Assembly: GCA_964036045.1 (NCBI GenBank)
Contig: OZ038381.1
Span: 1,178,001-1,242,000, forward strand
Length of the DNA stretch: 64,000 bases
Reading direction: 5' to 3'
Source of the DNA: Eutreptiella sp. 'Long Island Sound 2002'
Taxonomy: Eukaryota; Euglenozoa; Euglenophyceae; Eutreptiales; Eutreptiaceae
The position numbers and the translations under genes are program-made. Shown here piece after piece: positions 2,928 to 53,930 of this stretch. The first letter of the stretch is position 1; each line of letters opens with the position of its first letter. The notes under the pieces are model-generated. The model searched no databases, was not told the origin of the DNA, and was given only the letters and a program-made list of their open reading frames with translations.

Positions 2928-3992
2928 TGGCTGTGAGGGCGTGGGAGGAATGTGTGGCTGTGAGGGCGTGGGAGGAATGTGTGGCTGTGAGGGCGTGGGA
3001 GGAATGTGTGGCTGTGAGGGCGTGGGAGGAATGTGTGGCTGTGAGGGCGTGGGAGGAATGTGTGGCTGTGAGGGCGTGGGAGGAATGTGTGGCTGTGAGG
3101 GCGTGGGAGGAATGTGGGGCTGTGAGGGCGTGGGAGGAATGTGTGGCTGTGAGGGCGTGGGAGGAATGTGTGGCTGTGAGGGCGTGGGAGGAATGTGTGG
3201 CTGTGAGGGCGTGGGAGGAATGTGTGGCTGTGAGGGCGTGGGAGGAATGTGTGGCTGTGAGGGCGTGGGAGGAATGTGTGGCTGTGAGGGCGTGGGAGGA
3301 ATGTGTGGCTGTGAGGGCGTGGGAGGAATGTGTGGCTGTGAGGGCGTGGGAGGAATGTGTGGCTGTGAGGGCGTGGGAGGAATGTATGGCTGTGAGGGCG
3401 TGGGAGGAATGTGTGGCTGTGAGGGCGTGGGAGGAATGTGGGGCTGTGAGGGCGTGGGAGGAATGTATGGCTGTGAGGGCGTGGGAGGAATGTATGGCTG
3501 TGAGGGCGTGGGAGGAATGTGTGGCTGCGAGGGCGTGGGAGGAATGTGTGGCTGTGAGGGCGTGGGAGGAATGTGTGGCTGTGAGGGCGTGGGAGGAATG
3601 TGTGGCTGTGAGGGCGTGGGAGGAATGTGTGGCTGTGAGGGCGTGGGAGGAATGTATGGCTGTGAGGGCGTGGGAGGAATGTATGGCTGTGAGGGCGTGG
3701 GAGGAATGTGTGGCTGTGAGGGCGTGGGAGGAATGTATGGCTGTGAGGGCGTGGGAGGAATGTATGGCTGTGAGGGCGTGGGAGGAATGTATGGCTGTGA
3801 GGGCGTGGGAGGAATGTGTGGCTGTGAGGGCGTGGGAGGAATGTGTGGCTGTGAGGGCGTGGGAGGAATGTGTGGCTGTGAGGGCGTGGGAGGAATGTGT
3901 GGCTGTGAGGGCGTGGGAGGAATGTATGGCTGTGAGGGTGTGGGAGGAATGTGTGGCTGTGAAGGCGTGGGAGGAATGTGTGGCTGTGAGGC
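2928..3992. repeat. 27-bp G-rich minisatellite, about 39 copies
   Basis: The unit reads TGTGGCTGTGAGGGCGTGGG followed by AGGAATG. About 39 units are nearly identical. Most variation is at one dinucleotide step, giving TGTGG, TATGG or TGGGG at the unit junction; single substitutions occur near 3528, 3939 and 3961. The unit is a multiple of three and lacks stops in several frames, so long open frames crossing it (reading CGCEGVGGM, AVRAWEECV or SQPHIPPTP) are by-products. The array is cut on the left by the gap. Confidence 0.97.
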
Positions 3993-22004: not shown

Positions 22005-22090
22005 CAGCCTGTCTCTGTGCACCGGCAGCGACCCCGCGCCGTACAACCAGTGCTCCGAGCAGGCAAACATAAGCAGAAGGGTGGATTAAG

Positions 22091-27500: not shown

Positions 27501-29197
27501 AAGGTCTCAACCGAGATGGAACCCTCAAGCACAGCTACCCTGACGACAAGTGGGTCCTAGTACCTCTGGGCCACTGGAACTGGAAGTGGAACCAGGCCAG
27601 AGGGAACTACTCCACCTATGAGCAGGAACTGCTCGCGGGTATGCTGGTGCTATCCTCACAAGCACGACTGTTGGGGAGTAACCCTGTGGTCTGGCTATGC
27701 GACCAAGAACCGGTCCGCAGTTTCCAGAAGGGCCCCCCACCTGAGAAGGCCAAGCTACGTCGCTGGTGGACCTACCTCAGTCAACTACGGCTGACGGTAC
27801 ACCATATCCAGGGAGTGAAGAACGAGTGTGCCGACTACATCAGCCGCAACAACTTCGACGCCCTGATTGGTGCCCGGTCTGAAGCGCTGGCTAAGGAAGC
27901 GTTCAGCCGTATGGACGTACACCTGGACCTGAACATGACCATGATACGCCCCCTGGATGGACTCCAACAATCGGAGTACCTACAGGAGTTTGGGGATATC
28001 TACCGGCGCCTGGAGAAACGCCTTGAACCCCTCCTGGTCAACCAAGACCAGTGGAAGCGGGACAAGAGCTACCTCTGGCACGAGGACCGCATCGTGGTGC
28101 CTAGTGACCGAGTCCCAGCGCTGCTGAAGTGGACCCATGAGTCCAGTGGTCATGTGGGTGCTGACCGTACCCTGAGGCTGTTGAAGCAGTGGTTCCACAC
28201 TACGTGGACTGACGACCAGCTGCGGAAGACGCTCCTGCCTATCGTGGACAAGTGCCCGTGCAGGTCCTGTAAACCAGGGGATATCAGGGACAGAGGTCTC
28301 TACTCGACCCTGCCCATCCCTCACTGTGCTAACAGTGTTCTATACGTGGACTACACGGAGATGCCGAAGTTCGGGGGCTATGACTTCGCCCTCGTAGTAA
28401 CCTGTGGGTTGACCAGGTTTACCAGGGTGTTCCCATGTACCAAGCACATTACCGGAGAGGAGACTATCAAGATACTCCTGGAGGAGTGGTTTTGTGTCTA
28501 TGGGGCGCCCAAGGAGATCAACTCCGATGAGGACGTACGAGTACGCTCAGATACTGGCTGGTACAAGAGGGTCCTGAGGTCCCTCAATGTCCAGGTGTCT
28601 ACGGGGATTCCCTACTCTCACACGAGCAACCCCCTATGTGAGCGACAGATTCGTGTCCTGAAGGAGAACGTCAGGATATGGTGCAAAACTGAACGCACCA
28701 GAGACTGGGTGAGACTACTCCCCGTCATATCCTTGATGATGAACTCCCAAGAGAGTTCAGCTACTGGCTACTCGCCACATGAGCTATTCATGGGGCGCCC
28801 GGCGTGGTTCCTACATGCCCCCTATCCAGAGGACACCCATTCTTCTGTGGGTGAATGGGTCCAAGAGCAACAAGCGAAGGTGGACAAGGCCAAGGCTATG
28901 CTCCAGAGAGTGAGGGAGCGTCAGTGGAACAAGAAGAACAAGCACCGTGTACCGGCCACCTACCAAGAAGGGGACTGGGTGCTGGTGCACCACAGTCGAC
29001 TACCCGCCTGGCCACGCTCTACCAGCGATGACCCATACTTCGGGCCGTACAAGATCCTATCTGTGGATGGGCACCGTATCACCGTGCGGTGTTCTCCCCG
29101 TCTAGGGGGGACCCTGGTGTGCGCCGCTCAACACCTGAAGCGCTACCATGATCCTGAAGACCTCTGTGGGGAGGAGTGGGAGCTGAACGACGAGTAA
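24593..29197 (+). CDS. pol: pol of element A: protease, DIRS/Dam-like module, RT, RNase H, integrase
   Basis: This frame continues the gag frame after the TGA and has no ATG near its start, so readthrough is likely. The aspartic protease has LDTGATISIVA (D at 24673) and DFVLGTDFF. A module with VELFASDKQHV, YGNPRFS and VLCSPDWG follows (about 25139-25440). The RT spans KLVQMDLKLKPEF through MPFGVANAPALFQELMN to HIDDV (26945-26956) and LGFDVGYGWW. RNase H has TDAS, YEQELLAG and ADYISR. The integrase has an HHCC-type finger (HESSGH, then CPCRSC), then D (28349), SDED and CERQ in DD35E spacing. A GPY-like C-terminus contains FGPYKIL. The frame stops at TAA 29195, ahead of the chromodomain. Confidence 0.95.
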   Translation, partial: RGRSGGTQDLVFWVRIRLGGREYLGVLDTGATISIVAKKILPCGSLKNTMTTAAIRMGDGHVVHSCGDCEVEVPMGSKTIAHRFYVMDTDAFDFVLGTDFFVQHSQIQSLTLQAPYLLYVDHGSGRESVPLEQSEHTSSYLRLSKEEPSNMMAASKTEDYQLLGEVLDQGLKELGYSREDLSVELFASDKQHVLDLYCSKGKNCSYKFYWPSFGMAYGNPRFSELGKVLTKVALERSRMVLCSPDWGAHGGNEYWRTLLDKLTISSVRLPDEAIYVPLGRKTPIGKPGWGSMLSVVDGSLTTIPWEDLDPTLVQAIQRESDGLALGDLKDRLRPQDAVETTPGGDEYVVTDTNAPNSPCHVPVPDGVSECGLSELPSSIHSDDETEHDAFFVQTAVEEVENAEYVAPLKPLLSMRVEDPVDEELDPRSRLREYVDSKRKLVAKKLCYAKPTRSSWPLKQGRMGDLSQLKEDLEQKITTWQREVDLKLMKSVWGAHVRTPDEDDLSEECVCEPPKACLCCHRPPEMVEQDLLYAYQGLKDATAGEESVEDHLPTSIQGASNLHSDEDMEDKIKVLDPRVQKLIRTYLEVFGELPPPASCDKLVQMDLKLKPEFVGHKIRRRPYPAPKEQADEIERQIQECIDAGLVLEYKDGDYPLHCSPCFLVAKPGSTAKRLVVDYGELNKKTLNHSGSIPNMESTLEKIASCRYKTKMDKRSGFWQVDLTPNAQELLAFITPQGRVFKWKVMPFGVANAPALFQELMNKILSILRRRPKVQELISRGAQMEAHIDDVCLGTNTQEDHLILLGEFFAVCQENHTRLKLEKCEFMQETMQYLGFDVGYGWWTPAASKAKPLMDAKVRHEDPKKGLHDVRSFIGACNFYRRHIKNFTYTSAVLTDLIKKSTTWRWGPQEQQAFDELKDKVANAKCLGVPRAQGEIILVTDASNVGGGGTLFQWQALEKEEFDSAISQWGTEGLNRDGTLKHSYPDDKWVLVPLGHWNWKWNQARGNYSTYEQELLAGMLVLSSQARLLGSNPVVWLCDQEPVRSFQKGPPPEKAKLRRWWTYLSQLRLTVHHIQGVKNECADYISRNNFDALIGARSEALAKEAFSRMDVHLDLNMTMIRPLDGLQQSEYLQEFGDIYRRLEKRLEPLLVNQDQWKRDKSYLWHEDRIVVPSDRVPALLKWTHESSGHVGADRTLRLLKQWFHTTWTDDQLRKTLLPIVDKCPCRSCKPGDIRDRGLYSTLPIPHCANSVLYVDYTEMPKFGGYDFALVVTCGLTRFTRVFPCTKHITGEETIKILLEEWFCVYGAPKEINSDEDVRVRSDTGWYKRVLRSLNVQVSTGIPYSHTSNPLCERQIRVLKENVRIWCKTERTRDWVRLLPVISLMMNSQESSATGYSPHELFMGRPAWFLHAPYPEDTHSSVGEWVQEQQAKVDKAKAMLQRVRERQWNKKNKHRVPATYQEGDWVLVHHSRLPAWPRSTSDDPYFGPYKILSVDGHRITVRCSPRLGGTLVCAAQHLKRYHDPEDLCGEEWELNDE

Positions 29198-31796: not shown

Positions 31797-32613
31797 AGTA
31801 AGAAAAAGTGCTTTTCCATTGCTTTGGGACATACTCTAGTTGTATTAGAGATGCACTGAGCATCCATGCATTTTTATCTTAGTATTGGTCCAGCCAAAAG
31901 TGGTGAGAACACATTTTGACCTATGGAACCAAACACCCAATCAGGATATTGAGTGGACCCCTTAATCCCCTTTCAATCAGAAGTAAAACATCTTTTCCTG
32001 AGTTGACTGAGTACTGACATACCTAAGGTAGAACCTATGAATTTATCTATGTTTTTCCATGAATACTTATCTGCCCTAGTGGTATGCACCATAGGGGGTT
32101 AGGCACCTCTTTTTGAGAGGTCCTGGGTTCAATTCCCGGTCAGCCTAACTAAGTAGGAAGATCCCAACTAAGTAGGAAGATCCCATGTGACATGGCAGTG
32201 ACCTCATCGCCACATACCATGCCACCTCAGCACATATGGGAGCCAAAACAAAGAGTGCACATCTCCTAAGATGGCACTATGGAGAGAGAGTGATCCTGAG
32301 GCAGTTTTCTAACTCTTTTCCCAAAACATTTCAGCTATCTCTGTGAATATGCATTCATTTGTATCCTGAGTTGCAGTTTCTGTGAATACCTAATCATCTT
32401 TCACTGTTTACACTGCAGCCCTTCATGCTTTGATCCTGAATTACCTTCTCCTTGCATACTATTGGCTTGGGCTATCCTGGATTGAGTTGGCTTTACTGTA
32501 TTTCAACAAACAAAAGCTTTTCATCATCCAAAACCAGCAGCAGGACACCCTACAGCAACAACAAGCAGCAGGAGAAGCAAAAACACAGTGCTGAAAACAC
32601 TATAAACTTTTCT
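31797..32613 (+). repeat. 3' LTR of element A
   Basis: It matches 21176-21992 with two substitutions and no indel. TCTAG follows at 32614-32618. The tRNA-like boxes recur at 32072-32082 and 32126-32136. Confidence 0.95.
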
Positions 32614-32618
32614 TCTAG

Positions 32619-34372
32619 GGTCCTACGCACACTCAGGTCCTCCGTCCACTGCATCCCTGCCAAGACGACTACGACCTGAGTATCCAACCCCAAGGGCTCC
32701 CGAAGTGGAGCCAACACGAGTCGAAGAACACCATCCAAGGCCAACCTACGGTGCCCTGGATCAAACGGCCGAGCTGCTGGCCAAATTCCTGTCTGGATCA
32801 GAAGATCCAGATGTGACGGCCTTATCAGAGGCCATTAAGGCTAAACTGGGTATTGCAGAACCCTTACCCAAGCCTGAGTTCCTCTCTCTCTCTCCAGGGC
32901 TGAGTACCCTGGCCGAAGATCTCAAGAGATCGAGGGTCTCAAGGCTGTTGCCTAAGGTTACCTGCCCCAGCCCCTTTCACCCCCGTACCAGGACTGTGCC
33001 TATGGCGGATCTACAGGACGTGCCTGTCACAGAGAGTGAGAGAAGAGGGCTGTCAGCCCTGGCCCCTCTTGCCGGCGTGTCGCCTACAGGCCTAACTCCG
33101 GGGGGTGGGAAGACGGGCAGACCAATTGCCCAGGCGAACATCCAGCTGGAACTGCCGGAGTTCGACCCCAAAAATCTGCCTGAATGGGCAGAAGAATTTG
33201 CGGAGTTCCTTTTGTTGACTGGCCAATCCCATGTGGATGTGGCCACCGAATGTTCACTGCTAAAACGCTCTTGCAAAAAGAAATTTTTGCAAAAACAGGT
33301 CAAACAGATTGTGAAAACCTGTTCTACCTGGGCGGAGGTACTCCTGAGGTTAGAGAAAACATTTCCAGTCTATGAGACTGACCTCAGCGTACGCACACAG
33401 ATCGAGGAGCTACCTATGCTCCCGGAGTTTCCATCCGCTGCGCGATTTTCTGAGTATGTGTGCGACTTGGAGTACTTATTTTCGAGGATGAATGTGGGCT
33501 CCTACGGAGCCACTGAGCCCCACCTGTGGCTCATGAGTAAGATCCCCCAGCGTACGTGGGATGATTGCCGCTCCACCTCTGAGAGGAAGAGCAGGACCCA
33601 CTCGTATGATACACTGGTGGATCTCTTGATTGAGCTAGCTCTTGAGAGAGAGAACGACTCCCACATGGAGAAGTTCCTCAAGAAGCATTTGGGACGAGGT
33701 GGTACCCCTACCCCCGAACGTGGCGAAGGGAAGGGGCATAAAAATCCCACTAACACCAACCAGGGAGGCGGTAAAGGGAGGGGCAACCTACGTGCCATGA
33801 ACGAGGTTCCAACTGATGCAGGCACACCCCCCCTGTTTTACTGCCGACCTGTCAATGACAAGGGGGGACCTTGTCATGCCTCTGACTGCGATCTCCGCAG
33901 TGGCTGTATGCTGCAGATGAAACGTCAGCAGCATACTAAAGATGGGAAAACTGTGACCCATCAGGACCACTTCAGGTGTACCATCACCTGTGGTTACTGT
34001 GGCAAACGTCGTCACTATGAGGACGAATGCCACATCAAGAAACGCGAGAGTGACAAACTCAAGCGTCAGGAGGCGGAGCGCCAGAAGACCCCGACGCCCG
34101 CCAGAAATCCCCCGAATGGGGATAAAGGTAAAGGAGGTGGCAAGGGGGGTGGTAAGACTGGACCCCCTAACCCCCAGAGGCGCTCATCAGCGCCCGTTGC
34201 TACACCTACTCCTGCTGCCACACCCGCTCCCGCCGCAGGTGTCCCCCAGAAGCGCCCCCAAGGGGATAACGCTACCCCTGAGGGGAATAATTCTAAGAAG
34301 AGGCGCTTGGCCTGGATGGCCAAGTCCCTCATGGCTGCAGGAGTGGATGTGAAATTCCCTGATGAGGAATAG
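32619..34372 (+). pseudogene. gag: gag of element B, 3' part
   Basis: It continues the frame broken at 21175. It holds a capsid-like region aligned with A gag (LPEFDPKNLPEWAEEFAEFL, then KLLQKQVKQIV-type helices and LMSKIPQRTWDDCR), a HASDC segment, a CCHC knuckle (CGYCGKRRHYEDEC) and a Lys/Gly/Pro-rich tail. It ends in TAG followed in frame by pol, with context TAG-GGG. A GTG at 32705 is only an internal codon. Apart from the A insertion this half has no visible lesion. Confidence 0.9.
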
Positions 34373-37300
34373 GGGGGCGGCTCCGAAGAGGAGGACTTGG
34401 TTTTCTGGATCCTCGTGAAAATCGGGGATCAGGTTTTTCGAGCAGTGCTTGATACCGGTGCAACACTTTCCATAGTGGCCCGGCGCCTGCTTAAAACTTT
34501 CAGGAAGACTAAGACTGTGGCCATAAGAGTAGGGGATGGGCGTACCATCCATTCCTTTTGGGGGGGTCGATGTGACCATATGTCTGGGCGACGAAACCGT
34601 GACCCAACACTGCAGAGTGTTGGACACCGACGCCTTTGACATTGTCATTGGCACTGACTTTCTAAGAAGAAACCCCCAGGTTAAAATGCTGTCCCTACAG
34701 CGTCCTTACTCTTTGCACTGCGACTTTGGCAGTGGGCTATTCTCCGTTCCTTTGGAGCTGTCAGGACGAAAAGAGTCTGGGCTGCGCTACGCAGCCAAGA
34801 CGAACTATCGTACTGAAAACTACCAACTGGCCCGTCATGTTCTCGAAAATGGACTGGCGGCCCTTCAGGTAAACCTGGATGAGATCCAGGTGGAATTGTT
34901 TGCGAGCCAACAACAGCACATCATGCAGTTGTACTGCTCGAAACAAATGAACAATGCTTTCCGTTTCTTCTGGAAAGCAATGGGCCTAGCGTATGCTAAC
35001 CCTCCCTTCTCCCTGCTCGCGAAGGTTCTAACCAAGATCGCTTATGAGGGAGGAAGGGTTGTTATGTGCACCCCTGACTGGGGTTGCTCTGGTGAACATG
35101 CTTACTGGCACCGTATGCTTGACCGAATGACCGTGGGAAGAGTGCAACTCCCCGACGGCCCCATCTATGTGCCTGAGGACTCAGACACAGCTATGCAGGC
35201 CCCTGAGTGGGCCAGTTTCCTGTCCATCATCGATGGATCTCTCAATCCTGTACCCCTGTGTGACCTGGACCAGGTGCTACTAAAAGAGGTCATGGCCGAA
35301 AATCGAGGCCTGACCCTTTATGATCTCAAAAATCGATCTCCTGAGCACCTATCTGCCACACTTACAGGGTGTGAGTCTCCTGATGACTATCTGGAACCTG
35401 CAGCTGTAAAAGAGGATGCTGACGACCAACTGTCTGAGATCGCCAGCACTATTCCCTCTGTTGATCCCAGCTGTGTTGACCTAAAACATAGTGCTTTCCT
35501 AGCCCAGCTGTTGCTAGAGGAGGTAGATCTAGAGTCAACCTCTGAACCCGCTTCCTCTGTTGGGAAACCAGTGCTACACATGCAGCCTGTGCACACAGGT
35601 GAACCCGTGGCCCAGAGTACTGATGCTCTGGCACGGCCTGCTGCTAATAACATGCCCTTGTCTGAGCATGACACGCAAGAACTCCGACGGCTGTTGTACC
35701 TGAAGGCCGAAGGTATTGAGCGCCAAGAGCGGCTGCAATACCTCAGACAGACCTGGAAATACTCCATCTGGTCTGAGGAGGACGATGAGTTCTATACGCT
35801 GCCTGATCCTGAGATACCTCTAGTGTACTCTCTACACTATGGGCAGCAATGTCCCCCTGAGTGGGACGATGGTACTGTACCTGCCGAAACTGCCGATCGG
35901 CATAAAAAGAAAGAACATGGAAAAAGCAACCTCCATGCTGAGGAGGATTTCCTTCAGAAAGTCGAGAGTCTTAACCTTGACCCCCGCCTGAAGACACTGC
36001 TTATAACCTATGAGGAGGTGTTCGGCGCCTTGCCGCCTCCCCTATCTTGCAAAAAACTGGTCCAGATGGACCTGAAATTGAAACCAGAATTTGAAAAGAC
36101 GCGAGTGAGGCGTCGTCCCTATCCCGCTCCACAGGAACAGGTTGAAGAAATCGAGCGCCAGATCCAAGAATGCATTGATGCTGGCCTCGTTGAAGAGTAC
36201 AAAAATGGGGACTATCCCCATCACTGCAGCCCCTGTTTCCTTGTTGCTAAACCAGGGTCGACTGCTCTACGTCTTGTTGTAGACTATGGTGAGGTCAACA
36301 AGAAAACCCAGAACCACTCAGGGAGTATTCCTAACATGGAAAACACCCTGGAGCGTATTGCCAAATGCAGGTATAAGACCAAAATGGACAAACGCTCTGG
36401 TTTCTGGCAGGTTGACCTAACCGCCGCAGCCCAGGAGCTGCTTGCCTTTATAACCCCTAAGGGTCGTGTCTTCAAGTGGAAGGTTATGCCTTTCGGGGTG
36501 GCTAACGCCCCAGCGCTCTTCCAGGAGCTTATGAACAAAATTTTGTACATACTGAGGCGCAGGCCTCTAGTACAAGAGTTGATTTCTCGGGGTGCAGAAA
36601 TGGAGGCTCACATCGACGACGTGAGTTTGGGTACTAATACCAAAGAGGACCATGTCCTTCTCCTCCGTGAATTCTTCACTGTTTGTCAAGAAAACCATCT
36701 CCGAATCAAACTCGAAAAATGTGAGTTCATGAAAGAGGAGATGGAGTATTTGGGTTTCGACGTGGGGTATGGCTGGTGGAAACCAGCCGCGTCCAAGATG
36801 CAGCCCCTACAGGACATGCAGATTCGCGATGACCCTAAGAAGGGTCTACACGATGTGAGGAGTTTTGTGGGCGCCTGTAATTTCTATCGGCGTCACATCC
36901 ACAATTTTACTTACTCCTCTGCACCCCTCACTGACCTAATCAAGAAAACTACTCCCTGGAGGTGGACCTCCAGAGAGGAAGAGTGTTTCCAAGAGTTGAA
37001 GAAGAAGATTGCCTCCTCCAACTGCCTGGGAGTTCCCCGCCCTGAGGGCGAGATAGTCCTGATCACTGATGCCAGTGATGTAGGGGGGGGAGGTACGATC
37101 TATCAATGGCAGGAGCTTAACCCCGCTGAGCTAACCCACTGCCATTATCGTACTACTGGACTGAACCGTGATGGTTCGTTGAAACATGACTATCCTACCA
37201 GTGAGTGGCGACTGGTCCCACTGGGACACTGGAATTGGAAGTGGAACCAAGCGCGTTCCAACTACAGCACCTATGACCAGGAACTCCTGGCCGGTATGTT

Positions 37301-39176
37301 GGTGCTATCTTCACAATCCCGACTCCTGGGGTCTAACCCTATTGTCTGGCTGTGTGACCAGGAGCCTGTGAAGTCTTTTCAGAAGGGCCCACCACCAGAA
37401 AAAGCGAAGCTAAAACGGTGGTGGACTTACCTGAGCCAGTTCAGGCTGACAGTGCATCATATCCCCGGGATTAAGAATGAACTGTCTGACTATATATCGC
37501 GCAACAACTTCGATGCGCTTATTGGTGAGAGCTCTGAGGCGCTCGCCAAAGAGGCTTTCCAGCGTATGGATGTCCAGCTTGACCTGTCCATGCGCACTGC
37601 TGGAATCCTGGAGGGTTGGAGTCTAACCGACTATCAGTCAGAGTATGAAGAAATTCTCCAAACCCTCAACACTGGTCTCAAACCCCGTGTCATTGACGGG
37701 CACCAGTGGTATAAAAACAATCAGTACCTCTTCTACGAGGACCGAATTGTGGTGCCTGAGGCACGACTGGATGGGTGCCTACAGTGGTCCCATCTCAGTT
37801 CTGGTCACACTGGCGCTAATCGCTCAGTGGACTTCTTCCGTGAGTGTTTCTACTCTAGTCTAACCCTGACTGAACTGAGGTCGCGTATGCAGACCATTGT
37901 GGATGCTTGTGGCTGTCATGCCAGCAAGCAGAGCGACAGTAGGGATAGGGGTCTAATATCCAGCTTACCCATACCTTATTGTGCTAACTCTCTTCTCTAC
38001 GTGGATTACATCCACGGCTTACCACGCTTTGGCGGCTATGATAGTTGCCTCGTGGTCACCTGTGGTCTATCTCGCTTCACCCGTGTGTTCCCTTGCAATA
38101 AGAAAATCACAGGTGAGCAGACTGTAAAAATGTTGGTCGAACAATGGTTCGAACCCTATGGAGCACCTAAACAGGTGCACTCTGATGAAGATGTACGCAT
38201 CCGCAGTGACACTGGGTGGTACAAACGAGTGCTAAATGCCCTCAACGTGGAGGTAACCACAGGTGTGCCCTACACTCACACGTCTAACCCTCTCTGTGAG
38301 AGACAGAACCGTGTGGTGGAGCAAAACTTAAGAATCCTGATGAAACAGGAACGCACCAAGGACTGGGTACGCCTAGTGCCCTGGGCAGTTCTGTCCATGA
38401 ACTCACAGCGGAGCTCTTCTACGGGTTTCACCCCCAACGAACTGTTCCATGGAGGACGACCTGCTTGGTTCTTCAAAACCCCCTTTCCTGAGGACTTCAA
38501 GAGTCCTGTGGGAGATTGGCTAGAACACAAGCAGTCTCTGGCTAACCAGGCTGGTACTAACCTGAGGCACATTCGTGACCGTGAACAGAGCCGACGGAAC
38601 CGCCTACGGCGACCTGCCAGCTTCAAAGTTGGTGACCTTGTTTTGGTACACCATTCACGCCTACCCTCCTGGCCACGTAACTGCCTACAGGACCCTTACT
38701 TTGGACCCTATCGTATCATCAGGATAGATGGATCCAGGATCCATGTCAGGTGCAGTCCACTTCTAGGTGGTGAACTGCTATGTGCTCCTAAGCAGTTGAG
38801 GCACTATCACTCCCCTGACGACTTGTCTTGGGATGAGTGGCGCCTCAGCGACAGTGAGATTGAACGTATAGACCTAGAGAACGCTGCCAGTCCAGAGGAG
38901 GCAGACGAACTCGAAGAGATGACTGCCGATGAGATGGCAGTCGATGGTTACTACGTGGTTGCAGGTATTGCTCGCCACGAGTATAAACAGGGCTGGAAAT
39001 TCCTTACCCTGTGGGATGGCTATGGGTTGTCCGAGGCGACCTGGGAACCTATGTCAGCCTTCATACAACCAGATGGGAGTATCAACCCCATCTTCCGCAC
39101 TTACCTCGTTGAGAACAACGAGGGGCAGCTCCTAACCCGTGCTGAGACTATGTCCCAGCGTAAGAAGCGAAACTAA
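34373..39176 (+). pseudogene. pol: pol of element B: protease (frameshifted), DIRS/Dam-like module, RT, RNase H, integrase, chromodomain
   Basis: In frame after the gag TAG it reads GGGSEEEDLVFW and the protease LDTGATLSIVA. At the T4G7 run (34556-34566) one extra base shifts the frame, and the main frame to 39176 resumes at FGGVDVTICLGDE. Then follow DFLRRN, a module with VELFASQQQHIMQLY, YANPPFSLLAKVL and CTPDWG (34893-35180), the RT with HIDDV (36609-36620), RNase H (TDASDVGGGG, YDQELLAG), a DD35E integrase (LYVDYI, SDEDV, CERQ), FGPYRII, and a fused chromodomain (GYYVVAGIARHEYKQGWKFL, then ATWEPMSAF). Most of pol is intact. The shift could be a mutation or a homopolymer sequencing error. 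Confidence 0.93.
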
Positions 39177-44945: not shown

Positions 44946-45467
44946 TGTTCTTTACGATGCCCCGCTGCCACATGCGTGGTTTCGGTTGTGAGGAAAGGGC
45001 TCTCTCCTTTCCCTTGCGGTTAGAATTGGATTGGGGTTGAGATTGTGTAGCCACGGGGTGTTGCGAGGATTGAGAGGGTTTTTGCACTGAACGGCGCCTT
45101 TTGTGGCTGGCCAGGCCGGGGAGAAAGGCTCTTGCGCGCCAAGCTTTTTTGGGGAGGGGCGGGAGCCCGAAATCAAGTTCAATCGCGGGCTGAGTACCGC
45201 TGCACGTTGCTGTCCTCGTCTGCTTCATCTCAAAGAGATTTGGCAGCCCCGTTATAGACAACCGCAGGCCGGGGTCTCCGCTTGATACCCGAAGGCGGTG
45301 TGGTTGCGGACTGGGGGTTAGAGCATGACGGCTTGAGCACGGGGGGTGGCTTGGGGGAGGGATTCATTTGCAGAAGTGACTGGTGAGTGCCAGTGTGGTA
45401 GTACTGATTGATCGCGCCGCTAGGGCTGTCGAGGGTCGGCGTGAGAAAATGTGTAAGTGTGGCTTTT
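44946..45467 (-). other. Probable 3' region of the LINE
   Basis: Sequence downstream of the ORF2 stop on the minus strand. It contains short proline- and serine-rich open frames (for example 45261-44929, with KPSQSSQHPVATQSQPQ) that could be decayed protein sequence or chance. I see no clear poly(A) tail or simple-repeat end, so the element's 3' boundary is unresolved. Confidence 0.35.
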
Positions 45468-48400
45468 TCAAAGAGATGACACGTTGGACGAGTGTGAGGA
45501 CGATTGTGAGTTTGTACTCGCGGGGGAGGGGGGGGCTGGTGCGAAGTACCTTGTTATGCGAGGAGAAGGGGCGGAAATGGGGGCGGAGGCGGCGAGGGGG
45601 GGTGCTGGTCTAGGGGGGGGGGGGAGGTTGAACATGTCCCTGATTGTGAGCGGCCGTTTGGGGGGCGGAGGCTCTGGCTGGGGTTGACTTGCGGTACCGC
45701 GTTTCAGTGATAGAGGCCGGACGGGCCTTGGGGGCTGGCGGCCGTGTTTTCGAGTTTTGGTGTGTGCCGCAGGAGATGGGGGGCGGGGGCGTTTTGGGGG
45801 CTTGTGTGCAACTTTGTCCGGGAGGGGGGGGGGAGGGTGGTAGGCGGGGGGGGGGCGTTGTTGGGCGGTGTGCGACGTGCTGTAGGGCGACCAGTGGCGT
45901 CCCCATGAGTTGGGGCCCGTAGGGGGGGTGAGCGGGGCTGGGGGGGGGTGGTCTTTTAGCCATTCCAGCGTGCGGTATAGGGCGCTGAGGAGCAGGGGAA
46001 CACGATCCTTCAGGGCGAGTTTTAAGTCGTGACAGTGTGCTGGTTTTCTTCGGCCGGAGGGGGGGGTTGTGAGTTTGGTGTACAGCGTCATGGGAACAAG
46101 CCCCCGGACGAAATTGCGTCTCTCCCCCACGTGTGTGGTCGCGGACCACCATTGGGACACCACCGTGGTGAAGGGGGGGCGCCAGCATTGAATGTAGGAT
46201 TGGACCAGGTGTTCGCACGTTGGGCAGTGTGAGACGAAAGAGATAACATCCATCGGGTGCGGGTCGGGGCAAGCGTGGCAATGGCGAGGGCGCAAGTCGT
46301 CGTGGAAAGCAAATGGCGCCATGTTGAAATTTCCGGAGGACCATTTGAAAGGGAGGCCTTTGAACCACGAAGTGTGGTTGTAAAAATGGAAGCTGGACGG
46401 TGCGTGGATGTTTTCGTGTTTGTGGCGAGGGAGGAGATGCTTGATTGAGGTTGTAGTCAATTTGTGTATGACTGGGAGGGGGCCCCTGGATATGCACCCT
46501 ATCGGGGGGGGGGGAAGGAGGGAGGGGTCCCAGACCATCACGTGGGCGGCCCACTTTGAGTAAGCATCTGAGATTTCATTCCCCACGAACCCGGCGTGCC
46601 CCTTGATCCACCCCCAACCCTGGATCATCCCTGGGCGTAGGGAGGCCTGAATGGACTGGAGAGAGGATTCCCACGTGCCGGCTGGCGAGCGTGATGGGAG
46701 GCCTGGGGGGGTGTTCGGAGAGAGAACAGTGATAACGTGGAGGTTGTCCCCTAGCACGGCGAAGGAGAGGTGCGGGTGAGATGCAAGGGCCCACCGTAGG
46801 AATATAATAGCGGCCCAGAACTCCGATCCCTCTGATGACTGGTACGGGGACGTTTGGCACAGTACCCATCTGGAGCCATTTGGAAAAAACAGGGTGGCCG
46901 CCGATCCGTAGCCCAAGGCGCCCGCTGAGCCATCCAAGTACACCCATGTCGTGCCGGGGGACGATGCGAGGAGGAGGGCAAGGGCTGCTTCACAACCCCA
47001 TTCTTCGAGGTCGTCGGGGTCAAGGGAGTGAGGTTCATCTGGGAGCCGGTACAGCTCGCCATGCAGTGACGAGTCGAGTAGGACCCCGCCGTATGGCCCG
47101 GGGGGGGGGTTGAGGATGTATTCTTGAGGGTGAAGAAGGGGGGGGGTGAGCAGTTCGTGGCGCCCCGCCAGTTGAGGGAGGACAGAAATGGCTGGGTTTT
47201 GAAAGGTGTATTCTTTCTCGTTGCGGCGGAGACCGGGGTTTTTGATGGTGTGGGTGGTGCCGTCCGAAAACTGGAGTGTGGCCGATTCTGAGTGCACTTC
47301 CGTGACTGTACCTAGGTGGAACCCCAGGTCCTGGGGCGTCCGTTTTAATCTGTTGCCGAACTTGCTGTATTGTGGTGCCGGCTTGGTGGCTAGGAACCGG
47401 ACCTGGACTTTTTCTTTTGGGAGGAAAAGGGAGGGGGGGCAGGAGGCCCAGAGGCCGGTGCTGTGGTATCGGAAGCCTATGGCGTGGCATGCGTCCATGA
47501 TGGTGTCTTGGATTGGGTTGCGTGTGGTGGAGAGCATTGCTTCGGAAAAAGATTCGTTTGTCGAGGTCGGGCCGTCTCCGTTGAGGTACCTTATTGCGGT
47601 GTTTACCAGGGCCATGCAAATTGAAAAAGTGAAGTGGCGGAGTCCTAAGCCTCCCTGGTGGCGAGGGGTGTAGCGGGCCTTAGGGGAGACGAGGCGGGAG
47701 ATCCTGTTGGCTCTGTCCGGGGAGGGGTCATGCGCAACATTTTGCCAGATCATGGCCTGAAGGGCCCCCAACTCGTTCAGGGCCAGGGGGTGTGCCATGA
47801 GGCGGTAGGAAAGAATAGGGATGAGTTGGACGTTCACCAAGAGAATGTATTCCGAAAGGGTGAGCTGGAGGGGTTGGAGGGTTGTGAAAAATGAGCGTAT
47901 TTCCGACTTGGCCAATGCCAGTGTTTGTGCCTCATGGTTGGCGGTGAAGATGTATACCCCTAGGTATTTGTAGCAATTGTGTGGTTGCCCCGTCTTTTGG
48001 TTTGTTGTCGACAGGGGGGTGCCCGAGGGGGAGGTGAAGGTTCTGGGGGGAGCTGTTCCCATAGCGTGGATCTCGGTTTTGCTGAGGTTAAGGTCTAGAC
48101 CCCACTCCCTGGCGACCGTGTCGAAGAAGTTTAAAACTTGCTGTATGCGGTCCCCATTCTCTGATCGATAGAGGAGGTCGTCAACAAAGGCGTGGCCCGA
48201 TTCGTGTGGGGAGGGGGGTGCAGTGACGTGGGACGGCAAGGCGAAGAGGAGCACATTCAGGTAGAGGCAGAAAAGGATTGGTGACATGGGGCATCCTTGC
48301 CGAACGCCTCTGGTTTGCAGGTGTGAGGAGTGGGTTTGACCTGACACCACTGGGAAGTCGCGAGGGGCACGGTACAAGGATTGAATGAGGTTTACAAGGG

Positions 48401-50513
48401 GCGTAGGAAAGTTCAGGCGGGATAGAACTGTGAAGAGGGTGGTGTGGGGGACGGAGTTAAAAGCCTTATTGAAATCAATGTAGAGGCTGTAGCTACCGAC
48501 CGATTCCCGAAACGTGGATAAGAGGTTGAAAATGTGGTCCTGGCATCTGCGGTTCGGAAGCCCGCCGAACTGGGTGGGGTGTATGATGGAATGTTCAATG
48601 GCCGCTGCCAGTAGCTCCCGGTTGGCGTGTGTTGCAATTATTTTGTAAACGCTGTTCAGCAAGGCTATAGGCCTGTAATTTACCGGGTTCATCACGTCCC
48701 CTTTCTTAAAAAGCAAGATGATGTTGGCTTCGAGCCATTTCTCGGGCAACGGCCGGTGGAGGTAGTAGTTGCATACCTTCCAAACGAATTGTTGGATAGG
48801 GGGGGGGGAGACGTGCAAAGTGTAGTTGTTTGTGAAGTCCCGCCCCCCCGCCTTGTTGGGCTTGGACCTCTTAAGCGTGTTGCGTAACGATTCCCAGGTA
48901 ATGTCAGGGAGGAGGCCGTGTTTTGTGGGTTCGGGGCAGGCGGGGGAGTGTGCGAGTAGGCGATCCACTAGAGTGTTCGGCGGTGCGTATTCGAGGCTGC
49001 CCCCCAGGGTGAGGAGTGTAGAAGAGAAAATAGAGCCCACTTCTTTGGGGGTGGAGACGAGCTGTGTGGTGCCCGGGCGCTTCAGCGTTATTTCACCTCG
49101 TTCCACGGGGTTGAGCGCCTCGTTGATGGTGCGTTTGATCCTAGTTTTCCTCACTAGGCACCGATGGATTTTGGTGGTTGCGGCCTTGTTCACTTTGGTT
49201 TCCCACTCCTTGACGAGTTTGTTGAGCGTGTCCATGGAAGCGGGGTAGTTGGGATGGCTGGGGGGGGGCAGGGTTTGCAGGGACTCTTTGATTTTCTTTA
49301 CCAGAGCCGAGGAGGTAGGGCGTGACGGCGTGGTGATACTGTGGTAGCTGGTCGCCACTTCCTCCAGCACGACGTCTGTGAAAAGCTCGATGTCCGCCGA
49401 GGACAAGGACTCAAAGCGGGGGAGGGTAGACTCGCACCACCGCGCCAGGGGGGCAAGGGAGTCGTGGTGCTTGGAGCGTTCCCGCTCCGTCAGTTTTCGG
49501 AAAACTTTCCTCTTAGTTGTGGGAGCTTCGGTAAAAGGGTGAGGGGGGACTTGAGAGGTGTACGTGACTGGGTGGTGGTCTGACGTTTTGTCGTCGGTTT
49601 GGATGGTTGCAGAGGTGGGGGCAAAAAATTCCGAGGCCGCCGGGGAGAGCAAAATATGGTCAAGGCGGCTACTGCTTGCCCTGTACGGGGTGGGGTATCG
49701 GGAGAAGGACCGCTCGGTCGGGTGAAAGTGCCGAAAGGTATCGATGAGGCGCGGCGGGTCGCTCGTGATCTGTCTGCGAAGCCACGGCCATTCGTTGTCC
49801 GTTTGGAGGTTCGATCCGTCTAGTTCAGGGCACATTATGCAATTGGTGTCCCCACCGAGGACGTGGTTAGGATACTGATGCATGAGTGGCCGTAGGATGT
49901 TTTCAATTTTTGAGCGGTGGACGTCCGTGCTTGGGGCGTATACCGAGACCAGCAAGGTGGGCGGGGCCCCCGGGAGAGTGAGAACTGCTGCCGCCAGCAT
50001 CCCTTCTGTATCTAGTCGGGGAAGGGGGGTAACGAAGCGGGAGAGCCGGGGGGAACAGACCAAGACGGAACCATGCTCGCCTCTGGAGTGTTTGTCTTGG
50101 CTGATATTCGAAACGATGGTGGCTTTAGTGCCCGAACCGTAGGCGTATACGTGGGGGAGGATGGGGGCGTGATTGATTTCTTGGAGGAAGAGGATGTCGA
50201 AGTCGTTCTTGAGGTGTCGGAGAATTTGGCTGCTCACTATGGGTTTCTTCTGCAAGTTGTGGGATAGAAAACGCAGTTCTGAAGGGAGGGGTATGGGGGG
50301 GCGGTGAGGCCGTTGGTAACCCTTCCGTAGGCGCGTTTTGGATCTCGGGGGGGGCGGGATAGGGGGGGGCTGGGGGGGCACTGGGGAGCCGGGCTGGCTG
50401 GGCTGGCTAAGGCAAAGAAAGTGCTGAATTTGGTCGGCCGGTATCCCGGCCGAGGTGAGCTCGTCGTCTAGCCCCTTGCCTGTGATGGTGGAAGCCGTGA
50501 CTGGGCCGGTGGT
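45468..50513 (-). CDS. LINE ORF2: AP endonuclease, reverse transcriptase, RNase H
   Basis: About 1681 codons on the minus strand, open from just after TGA 50516-50514; the first 44 codons lack ATG and the first GTG is at 50381. Domains in order: AP-type endonuclease (LSHNLQKKP, DILFLQEIN, GGDTNCI, SRLDHIL, SDHHPV); reverse transcriptase (YRPIALLNSVYKII, YIDFNKAFNSV, RGVRQGCPMSPILF and FVDD at 48188-48177); RNase H (YLDGSAG, SEFWAAI, LGDNLHVI, WIKGHAGFVGNE); a Cys/His finger (CHACPDPHPMD then HCPTC); and a Pro-rich tail ending RITRYFAP, a PIP-box-like motif. All catalytic motifs look intact. The order fits L1/I-type LINEs with RNase H. How ORF2 starts is unclear. Confidence 0.93.
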   Translation of the reverse strand, partial: TTGPVTASTITGKGLDDELTSAGIPADQIQHFLCLSQPSQPGSPVPPQPPPIPPPPRSKTRLRKGYQRPHRPPIPLPSELRFLSHNLQKKPIVSSQILRHLKNDFDILFLQEINHAPILPHVYAYGSGTKATIVSNISQDKHSRGEHGSVLVCSPRLSRFVTPLPRLDTEGMLAAAVLTLPGAPPTLLVSVYAPSTDVHRSKIENILRPLMHQYPNHVLGGDTNCIMCPELDGSNLQTDNEWPWLRRQITSDPPRLIDTFRHFHPTERSFSRYPTPYRASSSRLDHILLSPAASEFFAPTSATIQTDDKTSDHHPVTYTSQVPPHPFTEAPTTKRKVFRKLTERERSKHHDSLAPLARWCESTLPRFESLSSADIELFTDVVLEEVATSYHSITTPSRPTSSALVKKIKESLQTLPPPSHPNYPASMDTLNKLVKEWETKVNKAATTKIHRCLVRKTRIKRTINEALNPVERGEITLKRPGTTQLVSTPKEVGSIFSSTLLTLGGSLEYAPPNTLVDRLLAHSPACPEPTKHGLLPDITWESLRNTLKRSKPNKAGGRDFTNNYTLHVSPPPIQQFVWKVCNYYLHRPLPEKWLEANIILLFKKGDVMNPVNYRPIALLNSVYKIIATHANRELLAAAIEHSIIHPTQFGGLPNRRCQDHIFNLLSTFRESVGSYSLYIDFNKAFNSVPHTTLFTVLSRLNFPTPLVNLIQSLYRAPRDFPVVSGQTHSSHLQTRGVRQGCPMSPILFCLYLNVLLFALPSHVTAPPSPHESGHAFVDDLLYRSENGDRIQQVLNFFDTVAREWGLDLNLSKTEIHAMGTAPPRTFTSPSGTPLSTTNQKTGQPHNCYKYLGVYIFTANHEAQTLALAKSEIRSFFTTLQPLQLTLSEYILLVNVQLIPILSYRLMAHPLALNELGALQAMIWQNVAHDPSPDRANRISRLVSPKARYTPRHQGGLGLRHFTFSICMALVNTAIRYLNGDGPTSTNESFSEAMLSTTRNPIQDTIMDACHAIGFRYHSTGLWASCPPSLFLPKEKVQVRFLATKPAPQYSKFGNRLKRTPQDLGFHLGTVTEVHSESATLQFSDGTTHTIKNPGLRRNEKEYTFQNPAISVLPQLAGRHELLTPPLLHPQEYILNPPPGPYGGVLLDSSLHGELYRLPDEPHSLDPDDLEEWGCEAALALLLASSPGTTWVYLDGSAGALGYGSAATLFFPNGSRWVLCQTSPYQSSEGSEFWAAIIFLRWALASHPHLSFAVLGDNLHVITVLSPNTPPGLPSRSPAGTWESSLQSIQASLRPGMIQGWGWIKGHAGFVGNEISDAYSKWAAHVMVWDPSLLPPPPIGCISRGPLPVIHKLTTTSIKHLLPRHKHENIHAPSSFHFYNHTSWFKGLPFKWSSGNFNMAPFAFHDDLRPRHCHACPDPHPMDVISFVSHCPTCEHLVQSYIQCWRPPFTTVVSQWWSATTHVGERRNFVRGLVPMTLYTKLTTPPSGRRKPAHCHDLKLALKDRVPLLLSALYRTLEWLKDHPPPAPLTPPTGPNSWGRHWSPYSTSHTAQQRPPPAYHPPPPLPDKVAHKPPKRPRPPSPAAHTKTRKHGRQPPRPVRPLSLKRGTASQPQPEPPPPKRPLTIRDMFNLPPPPRPAPPLAASAPISAPSPRITRYFAPAPPSPASTNSQSSSHSSNVSSL

Positions 50514-50598
50514 TCACTGAATCTTGGCCCTTTTGTGTTCAGGTAGAGGGGGCTGGACAGTGCAGGAGGCGGGTACCCGGCCCTCTGGCTTTCGTGGG

Positions 50599-53500
50599 TT
50601 AGCTTGCCTGTGGTATGTGTCGGAGGATTAGAGCGAGGCGAGGGACGGTACGAGGGACGGTTAGCCCAAACACTTCGTCTTCTCTCCGTCGAGGTATACC
50701 GTGGTGCCACTCATGGCGTGCGGCCCCCGTGAGGACCAGGAGAGAGCGGGCAAACAGGCGGATGCGAAAGGAGTCCCCGTTGGAGGGGTTCTTAAAGAAC
50801 ATTGTGGTGTCCGATTGGGAACCAAAAATGGACACTGGGTCGCCTAGCAAGGGGTCGTCCCCGTGGTAGCCGATGCCCTCTCCCGGGAGATACATTGTGC
50901 CCGTGATTTGGTTGGGAGGAGGGTGTGAGAGGCCTAGCCGCTCCAGCGCGGCATTGTAGGTTTGGAGGATGGAGGAAAACTCTTCCGGGATGGGGGACGT
51001 GGCGGCGACTTTGCTCGGGCCGAGGTATGCGTGGCCGAAGTGTTGGACTGAGCGCCCGTGGTACTTCTCCCACGTGTTGTCGTGGAGAATCTTTTTTACC
51101 GTTTCCTCTTGGCTTTCGGAGAATACGTCGCGGACGTAATAAAAACCAGCGGGGAGGCGGGGGTCGATTTGAATATCCGAGGCGGGGGTGGGGGCACCGT
51201 GGTCGGGGGGTAGGAGGGTGGTCGCCTCGCCTCCTAGTGGAGCAAGCAGCGGGACGCTGGTCTCGGACATCTCTTCGATGCGGCTTGGTCCCGGCGTTGG
51301 CGTAGCGGCGCCGGCGTCCTCCGGTGCCGCGTTCCACTCGCTGATGCGCTCAGTCAGCCCCGTAGCGGGCCTTTCACGAAGGGCGGTGACAAGTTGGGAC
51401 ACGAAGGCCGTGGACCCCAAGGCGGCTCCCGCTTGGAGGCGCTGCACTATGGGTTGCTCGTGCTCGGCCACATCCGGGTCTTGAGCGGGGAGGATCTTCT
51501 CGAGGGCGATGAGGTTGCGGTGTAGTGGGGCAAAGGCAGCGTCTCCATATTTGAAATCATGCGCTAGCAGCGCGGATTCCCCCTTTTCGTAGACCACGAG
51601 GTAGGCTTGTTGGTGTTCGTAGGGAGGCCGCGTGGGCTCGAACGACACGTACGGGCCAAGAAACCCCGCTTGGACGCGCAAGTCGAGAGCGTGCGCCGAT
51701 TTTGGGGCCACTAGGAGCACGGCGGTCTTCGGGGCCTTAGATGAGTCGTATGAGGGCGGGGCCGGCGTCGCGTGGGCTCGCTCGGGGGCGCCCGAAGGCG
51801 CGGACCTCGCGTTGCCGTCGGATCGTGACGAGAACCGCACTAATTGCCCATCTATGCCATGAAAGAGGACAATGCCGCATGAGTGGAAGAAGCGGATAGC
51901 TAACGTTTGGACACCGGTCTTCATGACGTCGCACGGCGCGTGAGTGGTGTCAATCGCCACGACCAAGGAATCTTTAGACCGGAACATCGCTCCCAGGGGC
52001 GGTGAGGCGCCCCGTCCACCGGGCAGGTTGGCGATCATCATGGTGAGCATTTCCGGAGCTTGTAGGTCTTTGTTTCTTTCCTTTCGGTCCCTAGCGATCA
52101 CGGCTCGATACACTTCGGTAGTCGGCAAAGCGTGCATGTCCATTGCAAGGAGTTCTCCGGTGAGGAATTGGGCGCACTCTCGGACCTTAAACATGAGCTC
52201 GTCGGCAAAGCGAGATGGGAGTTCCCAATCAAACCGGTAGTAGGCCCAATGCGGGCTCTCGGAAGGGACTATGTGGCCAAACGGGTAGTAGGCATTTTTG
52301 GTGTTCACCGATACGTTTGCTAGCGCGGGGACAAACATTTCGTTCATTAACTTCATGAAAGCACGGGCGTCTCCAATTTTGCGTTGCCTTGGTTTAGTTT
52401 TATCTCTCTCTTCCGGCGGCGAAGGCTCAATGTGATCAAGGAATTCTATGCTCACCTCAAAACGTAGTGTTTTGTGCAACCGGAGATCTCGCACCGTTGG
52501 ATGGGCGTGCTTGGCGGCGAAGCGGAAAGGTTCAAACTTAAAATTGATGTCTTCATATCGGCACCCGTCAAAGGAAGAGGTGTTTAGGAGCAAGGCAACA
52601 TACGGCATCGTTTGATGGCCGCTCGTGCGGAACTCGTAGGAGTCTTTGCCGTCCCTTTTGACCTTGTAGGCGTCCCGGAGTTGCGCCCCGTGCATACATA
52701 TCACGCTAGAAATGTACGGAAGAAGAGGAAAAAGGGCGGAAGTTGAGCCTAGCATGCGAAAGGTGGCGGCAACCACTTGAGCGTCCCACGCCGGAATAAC
52801 GAACCATCCTTTGAGGTCTTTGTTCTCTTCTTTGGCTTTATCTAGCACGGTTCTTAATTGTTTAGCCCACGGGGTGGCGGTGGGTGGAGACTCCTTGGCT
52901 TCGGCTTGGGAATAGTCCAACTCATACGGCTTTAGGTAGAAACGCTTGTGCTTGAACAAAAGCTTTTCGAGCTCGTTGTAGTTGTTGTGCGCAACGGAAG
53001 AGACCCTACCTCGATCTAGAATTTCCGTGGAGTTGCTCCCAACGAAGGCGGATTGAATATCGGTGCCTTCCACATCCAGGTAAAACTCGGAGTAGTCTTG
53101 TAGTCGGCGGTAGACTTCGGGAACGAAAATGCGTTGGCGTGTGTCAAATATTTTGCCTTCAATGGCTTCAAGTTGGCGTGACGGAAAGCGTGTTTGCAAC
53201 GGCGAATTTGAGGCTTGGTGTTTTTGAAAGAGGTGTGACGGAGAATAGTTGAATAGCGTTGAAAGGCCATCATCGGCGGCTTTGGAGCTTCCAAGTAGGG
53301 TGAAATTCATGGTGTTTTCGGGATGAACGAAAAGGTGGCTTGGCGTCAATTGAAAGATTGCGAGCGTGGATTTGAACTCGGGAATTGAGATGATGATTTG
53401 AAAACTGCGGGAAAGGTTCCAGAACTTGAACAGCCCAGGATTTTCTCCAATCACCGAATAGCCTGGACTACTGGTGGATCCATCAACAAAATGCTGAGGG

Positions 53501-53883
53501 TCAATCGAAAAAAAATAGACACTCAGAAAGTGTGAGGATTGAGAGGGTTGAGGGAGATTGGAGCTGGACGAAGCCACATCGGCCCGAGGGGGCGCAGCAA
53601 CACAAAAAGCATCCAGTGTGTGTTGCCGCTTTTCTAGGAACTGCTGCGCATGTTTTGCTTGTTTCTTGGCCTCTCTCTCTCTTTTCTCACGGCGCAAACG
53701 GTCAATCGCAGGCTGCAGTGTTGGCGCTTCACTGCCGCCTTCAGAGAATGGTTGGCCATCAAGCCCGTCCTGGATGATTACACTTTCTTCATCCCTTGGT
53801 AAGTGGTTACCCTTGCCGAACCGCAAGATCTGCTCAATCACCTTTGGCACACCCAAACAAAGGGGGACAAAATCAGAAGTCAA
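50599..53883 (-). CDS. Putative LINE ORF1 with C-terminal AlkB-like dioxygenase
   Basis: About 1094 codons without intron, stop at 50599-50601, 85 bp ahead of the open ORF2 frame. The N-terminus has a charged helix (RREKREREAKKQAKHAQQF) and a PIP-box-like QHTLDAFC. Residues ~120-880 are unrecognised. The last ~190 residues form an AlkB-like 2-oxoglutarate/Fe(II) oxygenase: TGTMYLPGEGIGYHGDD carries the iron-binding HxD (50865-50857), GAARHEWHHGI carries the distal His, and RLALILR has the 2-oxoglutarate-binding Arg. AlkB enzymes remove alkyl groups from nucleic acids. The frame opens after a TGA and its first ~190 codons contain no ATG, so the start is spliced, non-AUG or lost. The link to ORF2 rests on strand, spacing and lack of introns. 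Confidence 0.8.
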   Translation of the reverse strand: MTSDFVPLCLGVPKVIEQILRFGKGNHLPRDEESVIIQDGLDGQPFSEGGSEAPTLQPAIDRLRREKREREAKKQAKHAQQFLEKRQHTLDAFCVAAPPRADVASSSSNLPQPSQSSHFLSVYFFSIDPQHFVDGSTSSPGYSVIGENPGLFKFWNLSRSFQIIISIPEFKSTLAIFQLTPSHLFVHPENTMNFTLLGSSKAADDGLSTLFNYSPSHLFQKHQASNSPLQTRFPSRQLEAIEGKIFDTRQRIFVPEVYRRLQDYSEFYLDVEGTDIQSAFVGSNSTEILDRGRVSSVAHNNYNELEKLLFKHKRFYLKPYELDYSQAEAKESPPTATPWAKQLRTVLDKAKEENKDLKGWFVIPAWDAQVVAATFRMLGSTSALFPLLPYISSVICMHGAQLRDAYKVKRDGKDSYEFRTSGHQTMPYVALLLNTSSFDGCRYEDINFKFEPFRFAAKHAHPTVRDLRLHKTLRFEVSIEFLDHIEPSPPEERDKTKPRQRKIGDARAFMKLMNEMFVPALANVSVNTKNAYYPFGHIVPSESPHWAYYRFDWELPSRFADELMFKVRECAQFLTGELLAMDMHALPTTEVYRAVIARDRKERNKDLQAPEMLTMMIANLPGGRGASPPLGAMFRSKDSLVVAIDTTHAPCDVMKTGVQTLAIRFFHSCGIVLFHGIDGQLVRFSSRSDGNARSAPSGAPERAHATPAPPSYDSSKAPKTAVLLVAPKSAHALDLRVQAGFLGPYVSFEPTRPPYEHQQAYLVVYEKGESALLAHDFKYGDAAFAPLHRNLIALEKILPAQDPDVAEHEQPIVQRLQAGAALGSTAFVSQLVTALRERPATGLTERISEWNAAPEDAGAATPTPGPSRIEEMSETSVPLLAPLGGEATTLLPPDHGAPTPASDIQIDPRLPAGFYYVRDVFSESQEETVKKILHDNTWEKYHGRSVQHFGHAYLGPSKVAATSPIPEEFSSILQTYNAALERLGLSHPPPNQITGTMYLPGEGIGYHGDDPLLGDPVSIFGSQSDTTMFFKNPSNGDSFRIRLFARSLLVLTGAARHEWHHGIPRRREDEVFGLTVPRTVPRLALILRHIPQAS

Positions 53884-53930
53884 AACCTCTGCTAAGGGTC
53901 ACCATGATGCCCCTAGGGGCCCCTAGTATC

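Follow-up and report, generated by a model that had tools for sequence, protein, structure and literature searches.

A Ty3/gypsy retrotransposon of Phalaenopsis orchids encodes an AlkB-family 2-oxoglutarate (2OG)/Fe(II) dioxygenase that binds RNA and demethylates N6-methyladenosine (m6A) in vitro (PMC9289625). AlkB domains are also carried by plant RNA viruses of the Alphaflexiviridae, Betaflexiviridae and Closteroviridae, where they are thought to keep the RNA intact (PMC9289625). Foreign enzymes have entered long interspersed nuclear elements (LINEs) as well: an open reading frame (ORF) of insect TRAS and Jockey LINEs, which is ORF1 in Jockey, gained an RNA helicase derived from an RNA virus (PMC5563155), and other LINEs reportedly possess an esterase in ORF1 that is tied to lipids by its authors (PMC3905857). 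Here we describe a LINE of the euglenophyte Eutreptiella sp. ‘Long Island Sound 2002’, the ORF1 of which ends in a predicted AlkB-type dioxygenase domain. It lies in a stretch of 64,000 nucleotides (contig OZ038381.1 of assembly GCA_964036045.1, positions 1,178,001 to 1,242,000 of the forward strand), which was analysed as a whole and is termed the window; feature positions are those of the window.

Similar to the orchid element, the Eutreptiella LINE is a retrotransposon that appears to have captured and kept an AlkB-family 2OG/Fe(II) dioxygenase, including the cofactor residues, but the two differ in architecture. The orchid element is bounded by long terminal repeats (LTRs), spans ~25 kb and has AlkB in a separate additional ORF that is ALKBH5-like per its authors (PMC9289625), whereas in the LINE reported here AlkB forms the C-terminal end of ORF1 and has ALKBH8, Ofd2 and ALKBH6 as its nearest solved relatives. 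Because the orchid domain is ALKBH5-like and no ALKBH5 appears among the 15 solved sequences that match the LINE domain at E ≤ 1, the two AlkB domains look independent, as far as sequence comparison goes. The insect TRAS and Jockey elements resemble the present one in that a LINE ORF gained a foreign RNA-acting enzyme domain, which is a helicase and not a dioxygenase (PMC5563155); the esterase LINEs share an accessory enzyme domain in ORF1, but not one that acts on nucleic acids (PMC3905857). The plant-virus domains are alike in belonging to an RNA-based selfish element; they are parts of virus proteins, however, and match the LINE domain at the fold level only, with no sequence kinship shown. 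By both sequence and fold, the closest solved dioxygenases are ALKBH8, ALKBH6 and Schizosaccharomyces pombe Ofd2, which are nevertheless cellular proteins outside mobile elements. No report of a LINE with an AlkB domain was found in the literature searched, with most subscription papers, bioRxiv and Repbase lying outside its scope. Altogether, AlkB in a retrotransposon (orchids) and foreign enzymes in LINE ORF1 were already known, and their combination, a LINE ORF1 that ends in AlkB, is apparently new.

The LINE occupies positions 45079..53533 on the minus strand (8,455 bp), with ends common to copies elsewhere in the genome that are 99.3-100% identical, and a 16-nt direct repeat on either side of the window copy (overlap with the A tail counted). 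In the 5′ to 3′ direction, it consists of a 223-bp 5′ untranslated region (UTR; 53311..53533) that reaches from the element end to the first in-frame ATG at 53310, ORF1 of 903 amino acids plus stop (50599..53310), an 85-bp stretch between the ORF1 stop and the opening of the ORF2 frame (50514..50598), the ORF2 frame of 1681 codons with endonuclease, reverse transcriptase and RNase H (45468..50513), and a 389-bp 3′ UTR with a short A tail at its end (45079..45467), all on the minus strand. Its sequence starts with (A)CACTTTCTGAGTGTC and finishes with GTTCAGTGCAAAA(A). The two ends of the window copy are unlike each other (CACTTTCTGAG... versus ...TTCAGTGCAAAA), and no direct repeat of at least 150 nt is listed inside 45079-53533, which excludes long terminal repeats. 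LINEs insert by target-primed reverse transcription. Since the boundaries are shared across copies and direct repeats flank them, the element is a LINE with the AlkB ORF inside it, namely a two-ORF non-LTR retrotransposon with an apurinic/apyrimidinic endonuclease (APE)-type enzyme.

An earlier note on this DNA had placed an AlkB ORF upstream of a LINE ORF2 on the same strand, which agrees with a Pfam match to PF13532 and the catalytic residues in ORF1, followed 85 bp on by the endonuclease/reverse transcriptase/RNase H frame. It had also treated the complete open minus-strand frame as this ORF. The frame at 50599-53898 is indeed open throughout its 1099 codons, with the AlkB domain at its end, but its first ~121 codons are flanking DNA because the element begins at ~53533, leaving an ORF1 of 903 residues. 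The part of the frame that lies outside the LINE, next to its 5′ end (window 53534-53898), resembles a piece of another coding sequence or transposon, split by the insertion.

The last 210 residues of ORF1 (50602..51231, minus strand) comprise the AlkB-type domain and part of a linker. The Pfam family 2OG-FeII_Oxy_2 (PF13532) matches residues 967-1074 of the 1099-residue frame (E=2.5e-7, 31.6 bits) and the 903-residue ORF1 with 32.2 bits, in each case above the gathering score of 31.2 bits by a narrow margin; the AlkB profile suggested by the earlier note thus finds the domain. The assignment does not rest on Pfam alone, because phmmer also matches these 210 residues to the solved structures of S. 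pombe Ofd2 (E=4.6e-13 over 81 residues), human ALKBH8 (E=5.8e-13 over 163 residues) and ALKBH6 (E=5.4e-10 over 170 residues). Alignment against ALKBH8 places the HxD motif in GYHGDD (H816 and D818, ORF1 numbering) and the distal His in EWHHGI (H869/H870, with H870 aligned), whereas the R-x5-R motif in RLALILR (R891 and R897) was aligned to P0073. We take the iron triad H816/D818/H870 together with R891/R897 to be the catalytic residues of the AlkB family. Structure prediction had also been proposed earlier. The model of the AlkB part is moderate (predicted local distance difference test (pLDDT) 59.3, predicted template modelling (pTM) score 0.60) and weak around the active site; a Foldseek search of the PDB with this moderate model returned chains of ALKBH6, Ofd2 and ALKBH8 as the first seven matches, with template modelling (TM) scores by query of only 0.50-0.57 and root-mean-square deviations of 5.0-7.3. 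By contrast, the prediction of full-length ORF1 was uninformative (mean pLDDT 33.5). Altogether, the ORF1 C-terminus is a predicted complete AlkB-type Fe(II)/2OG dioxygenase domain with its catalytic residues present, although homology does not reveal what a domain of the ALKBH8/ALKBH6/Ofd2 kind acts on. As to a donor of the domain, eight stretches in viral contigs fit a pattern and none was confirmed, tblastn at E ≤ 0.01 found no relative in 50,697 phage records, and no PHROG matched at E ≤ 0.1.

The N-terminal and middle part of ORF1 (51232..53310, minus strand, 693 residues) has no recognisable domain, with no Pfam family at E ≤ 10 within HMMER’s filters. Protein relatives of ORF1 amount to 12 proteins among 7993 scored candidates, 83-99% identical. 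In one protein, P0002, the LINE ORF1 frame is continuous with an unrelated upstream coding sequence, apparently by insertion into another gene or element. ORF2 possesses an APE-type endonuclease (residues 84-313, Exo_endo_phos PF03372, E=1.1e-8), a reverse transcriptase (residues 604-854, RVT_1 PF00078, E=8.1e-32) and an RNase H (residues 1189-1321, a match to RNase_H under Pfam’s gathering score); related LINE ORF2s include P0080, P0081 and P0082, at 52%, 40% and 33%, respectively. In the ORF2 frame (window 50513-50000), no ATG precedes codon 172, which sits well within the endonuclease, and a non-AUG start or reinitiation after ORF1 are candidate modes of initiation.

Copies were sought in the genome to which the window belongs, which comprises 2,280,300,865 bases (2.28 Gb) in 2205 contigs. 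The LINE is a high-copy dispersed family, with 42 scored matches to the ORF1 frame among 4831 candidates and 40 to the 5′ UTR among 1069, the unscored candidates of both searches not being confirmed copies. All 42 ORF1 matches extend to frame residue 1098 or 1099, so that the AlkB end is included in each; 11 have one or two stops in the matched stretch, and every match also spans sequence upstream of the ORF1 ATG. We fetched 22 of the 42, the window copy included, at ~10 kb each. In 18 of these 22, the unit has no large gap between ~53533 and 45079 and is 99.3-100% identical to the window copy. Among the incomplete copies, L011 lacks 45296-45819, L018 lacks 47291-48140 and L013 ends at 45421. 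A further copy, L028, stops at 46543 and has a 3′ piece in inverted orientation next to its own 5′ end, which might be a rearrangement or an assembly effect. Direct repeats of 16-19 nt (A-tail overlap counted) flank 18 of the 19 copies examined, the exception being L013, the 3′ end of which is cut; the 3′ ends of the other copies lie at a short A run after ...GTTCAGTGC. These near-identical, uninterrupted copies with flanking direct repeats show that ORF1-AlkB and the reverse transcriptase spread together as a single unit, recently. In line with the earlier note, the AlkB ORF thus belongs to the LINE, as the 8,455-bp unit recurs elsewhere in the genome with both ORFs and the same boundaries, while its dispersed, near-identical copies and the direct repeats outside it rule out a single-copy host gene. 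The notion that AlkB comes from a host gene that adjoins the LINE by chance is refuted by the shared unit with both ORFs and the outer direct repeats.

Relatives beyond this recent burst also carry the domain. The identity of diverged copies of the AlkB domain, matched along its whole length or a part of it, falls to about 63-72% (65 matches among 428 candidates, 64 of them from ‘ena’), and the catalytic set of HxD, distal His and both Arg is whole in four of the eight diverged relatives aligned (P0004, P0015, P0017 and P0018). The motif itself varies, from GYHGDD in the window copy to GYHRDD or GYHKDD in diverged relatives. P0004 has an open ORF1 of 824 residues that is 94% identical to the window copy and retains HxD, the distal His and R-x5-R; between the two, the catalytic stretch 801-903 is 95% identical, compared to 88% for the linker 621-710. 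A genome search with P0004 gave 55 scored matches among 3093 candidates, all of which cover residues 1-824 without a stop. Five of them match at 95-100% (C11:49589310, C11:49385546, C4:175480786, C19:30258039 and C14:56277042), and the other 50, including the window copy, at 94%. Because diverged copies at 63-72% and intact ORF1s ~6% apart keep AlkB, the domain, as judged from these alignments, has persisted over more than a single expansion of the family.

LINE ORF1 proteins generally bind the RNA of their own element in cis. For this recently active two-ORF LINE, we consider it slightly more probable than not that ORF1, through its AlkB end, strips N-methyl groups from the element’s own cis-bound RNA. 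The orchid Ty3/gypsy AlkB, the nearest counterpart in a mobile element that has been assayed, is a precedent for such an activity (PMC9289625). The ORF1 protein would bind the element RNA in cis, and the AlkB end would take N-methyl groups off it oxidatively. This might remove host-written m6A that would otherwise feed the RNA to surveillance or granules, or it might repair 1-methyladenosine (m1A) and 3-methylcytidine (m3C) lesions that would stall the reverse transcriptase on an 8.5-kb template in the course of target-primed reverse transcription. A benefit of this kind to the element would account for AlkB being kept. More tentatively, and at somewhat less than an even chance, this may be a LINE lineage with its own RNA-repair enzyme or epitranscriptome eraser, in which the ORF1 protein would coat the element RNA while its AlkB end clears m1A/m3C or m6A from the template, and on which long-template reverse transcription or escape from m6A control depends, gained independently of the orchid gypsy element and the plant viruses.

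Among the recent copies, ORF1 has no internal stop in 20 aligned copies and ORF2 has stops in two of 20, with insertions relative to the window copy dropped and frameshifts thus uncounted; the single ‘stop’ counted in ORF1 is a switch from one terminal stop codon to another. Variable sites are 41 synonymous and 18 nonsynonymous in ORF1 (neutral expectation 22 and 55), 77 and 84 in ORF2 (40 and 98), and 3 and 4 in the AlkB piece (4.9 and 12.7). Because ORF1 protein score determined the ranking of the copies, which biases the ORF1 and AlkB counts, and the AlkB changes are too few, these numbers cannot prove selection on AlkB. ORF2 played no part in the ranking, and the numbers for it suggest that the lineage has been under selection. 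Further observations weigh against a conserved RNA demethylase. Among the diverged relatives, P0020 lacks the first Arg, P0022 and P0023 lack the distal His, and P0005 is out of frame before AlkB; these four may be decayed copies, yet they show no constraint. Neither ALKBH5 nor Escherichia coli AlkB is among the 15 solved sequences matching at E ≤ 1. Moreover, the m6A writer METTL3 reportedly facilitates retrotransposition of LINE-1 (L1) and ALKBH5 is said to suppress it (PMC7873242), so that a LINE would not necessarily profit from losing m6A.

The linkage of the two ORFs is also not strict. The 5′ UTR was used as a DNA query, which avoids ranking by ORF1, and eight of its 40 scored loci were cut out. 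Six of the eight have the 5′ UTR and ORF1 continuous to 51811, where the cut stops short of AlkB, and five of these six are also among the ORF1 matches. The other two, L032 and L033, lack ~1.87 kb (window 50360-52231), a loss that takes away ORF1 from residue ~360 on, AlkB included, together with the first part of the ORF2 frame. L033 lies on C21 and L032 on the unplaced contig C1168. They differ near the 3′ cut of L032, but agree completely in the 1,500 bp of upstream flank, and they are therefore most likely one insertion that occurs twice in the assembly. As far as the cut reaches, the N-terminal part of ORF1 in L033 is fused in frame to ORF2. An AlkB-less derivative thus exists at one locus, by internal deletion. 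The question raised in the earlier note, whether the AlkB and reverse transcriptase ORFs always travel together, is answered positively for the 18 of 22 copies that are whole and for the AlkB end in 42 of 42 matches, but not for this insertion. A reverse transcriptase ORF without the AlkB ORF, which that note had listed as refuting its reading, thus occurs in a minor form, at one damaged locus as far as the copies examined show.

The dioxygenase might act on DNA instead, taking N6-methyladenine (6mA) or other N-methyl bases off newly inserted copies or target sites, which would lessen silencing. AlkB-family enzymes work on both DNA and RNA, and Caenorhabditis elegans NMAD-1, named a DNA N6-methyl adenine demethylase, gives a weak sequence match to the AlkB domain (E 0.06-0.07) in addition to a Foldseek match. 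However, the nearest sequence relatives are ALKBH8, Ofd2 and ALKBH6, and LINE ORF1 proteins are RNA-binding parts of the ribonucleoprotein particle, which makes a DNA substrate unlikely. ALKBH8, with its E-value of 5.8e-13, is among the best solved relatives, which brings up modification of tRNA or host RNA in trans, for example ALKBH8-like at the tRNA wobble position, in favour of element translation or to weaken host control. Such a role appears rather improbable, considering the cis preference of LINE proteins and the partner domains of ALKBH8: neither an RNA recognition motif (RRM) nor a methyltransferase is present, and no second Pfam family was found in ORF1 at the threshold given above.

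A catalytically idle nucleic-acid-binding module would be consistent with the change from GYHGDD in the window copy to GYHRDD or GYHKDD in diverged relatives. The middle residue of HxD is no metal ligand, however, and HxD, the distal His and both Arg are kept in the window copy and P0004, leaving loss of activity with a similarly small chance. A passenger domain, captured by an active LINE and of no advantage to it, is very improbable. A young burst alone, with copies 99.3-100% identical, would give the same picture, the substitution counts within the burst are biased and small, and half of the eight diverged relatives lack part of the catalytic set or are out of frame. Nevertheless, retention of AlkB in domain copies at 63-72% identity and in intact ORF1s ~6% apart, that is, over more than one expansion round, speaks against mere carriage.

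Elsewhere in the window, two Ty3/gypsy-type elements lie on the plus strand, at 22073-29197 and 32606-39176. Each has one ORF without a clear Pfam match and one reverse transcriptase/RNase H/integrase ORF; a protease match is found in the first element only, and a weak chromodomain match in the second. Pairs of 300-nt direct repeats occur around them, at 19957/41783, 21175/31796 and 29545/39525. A direct duplication covers at least 1-2311 and 8707-11017, with identical ORFs at an offset of 8706 in addition to an exact 300-nt repeat. A minisatellite at 2928-3991 has 39 copies of a 27-bp unit and is preceded directly by a masked stretch. ARAGORN found no tRNA genes in the window, nor were there any Rfam matches.

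The element bears on the question of whether methyl marks on RNA or DNA restrain retrotransposons, and whether the elements fight back. A young LINE with its own dioxygenase is a direct test system for that question. Considered alongside the orchid Ty3/gypsy element and the plant viruses, it would suggest that RNA-based parasites have captured AlkB enzymes repeatedly.

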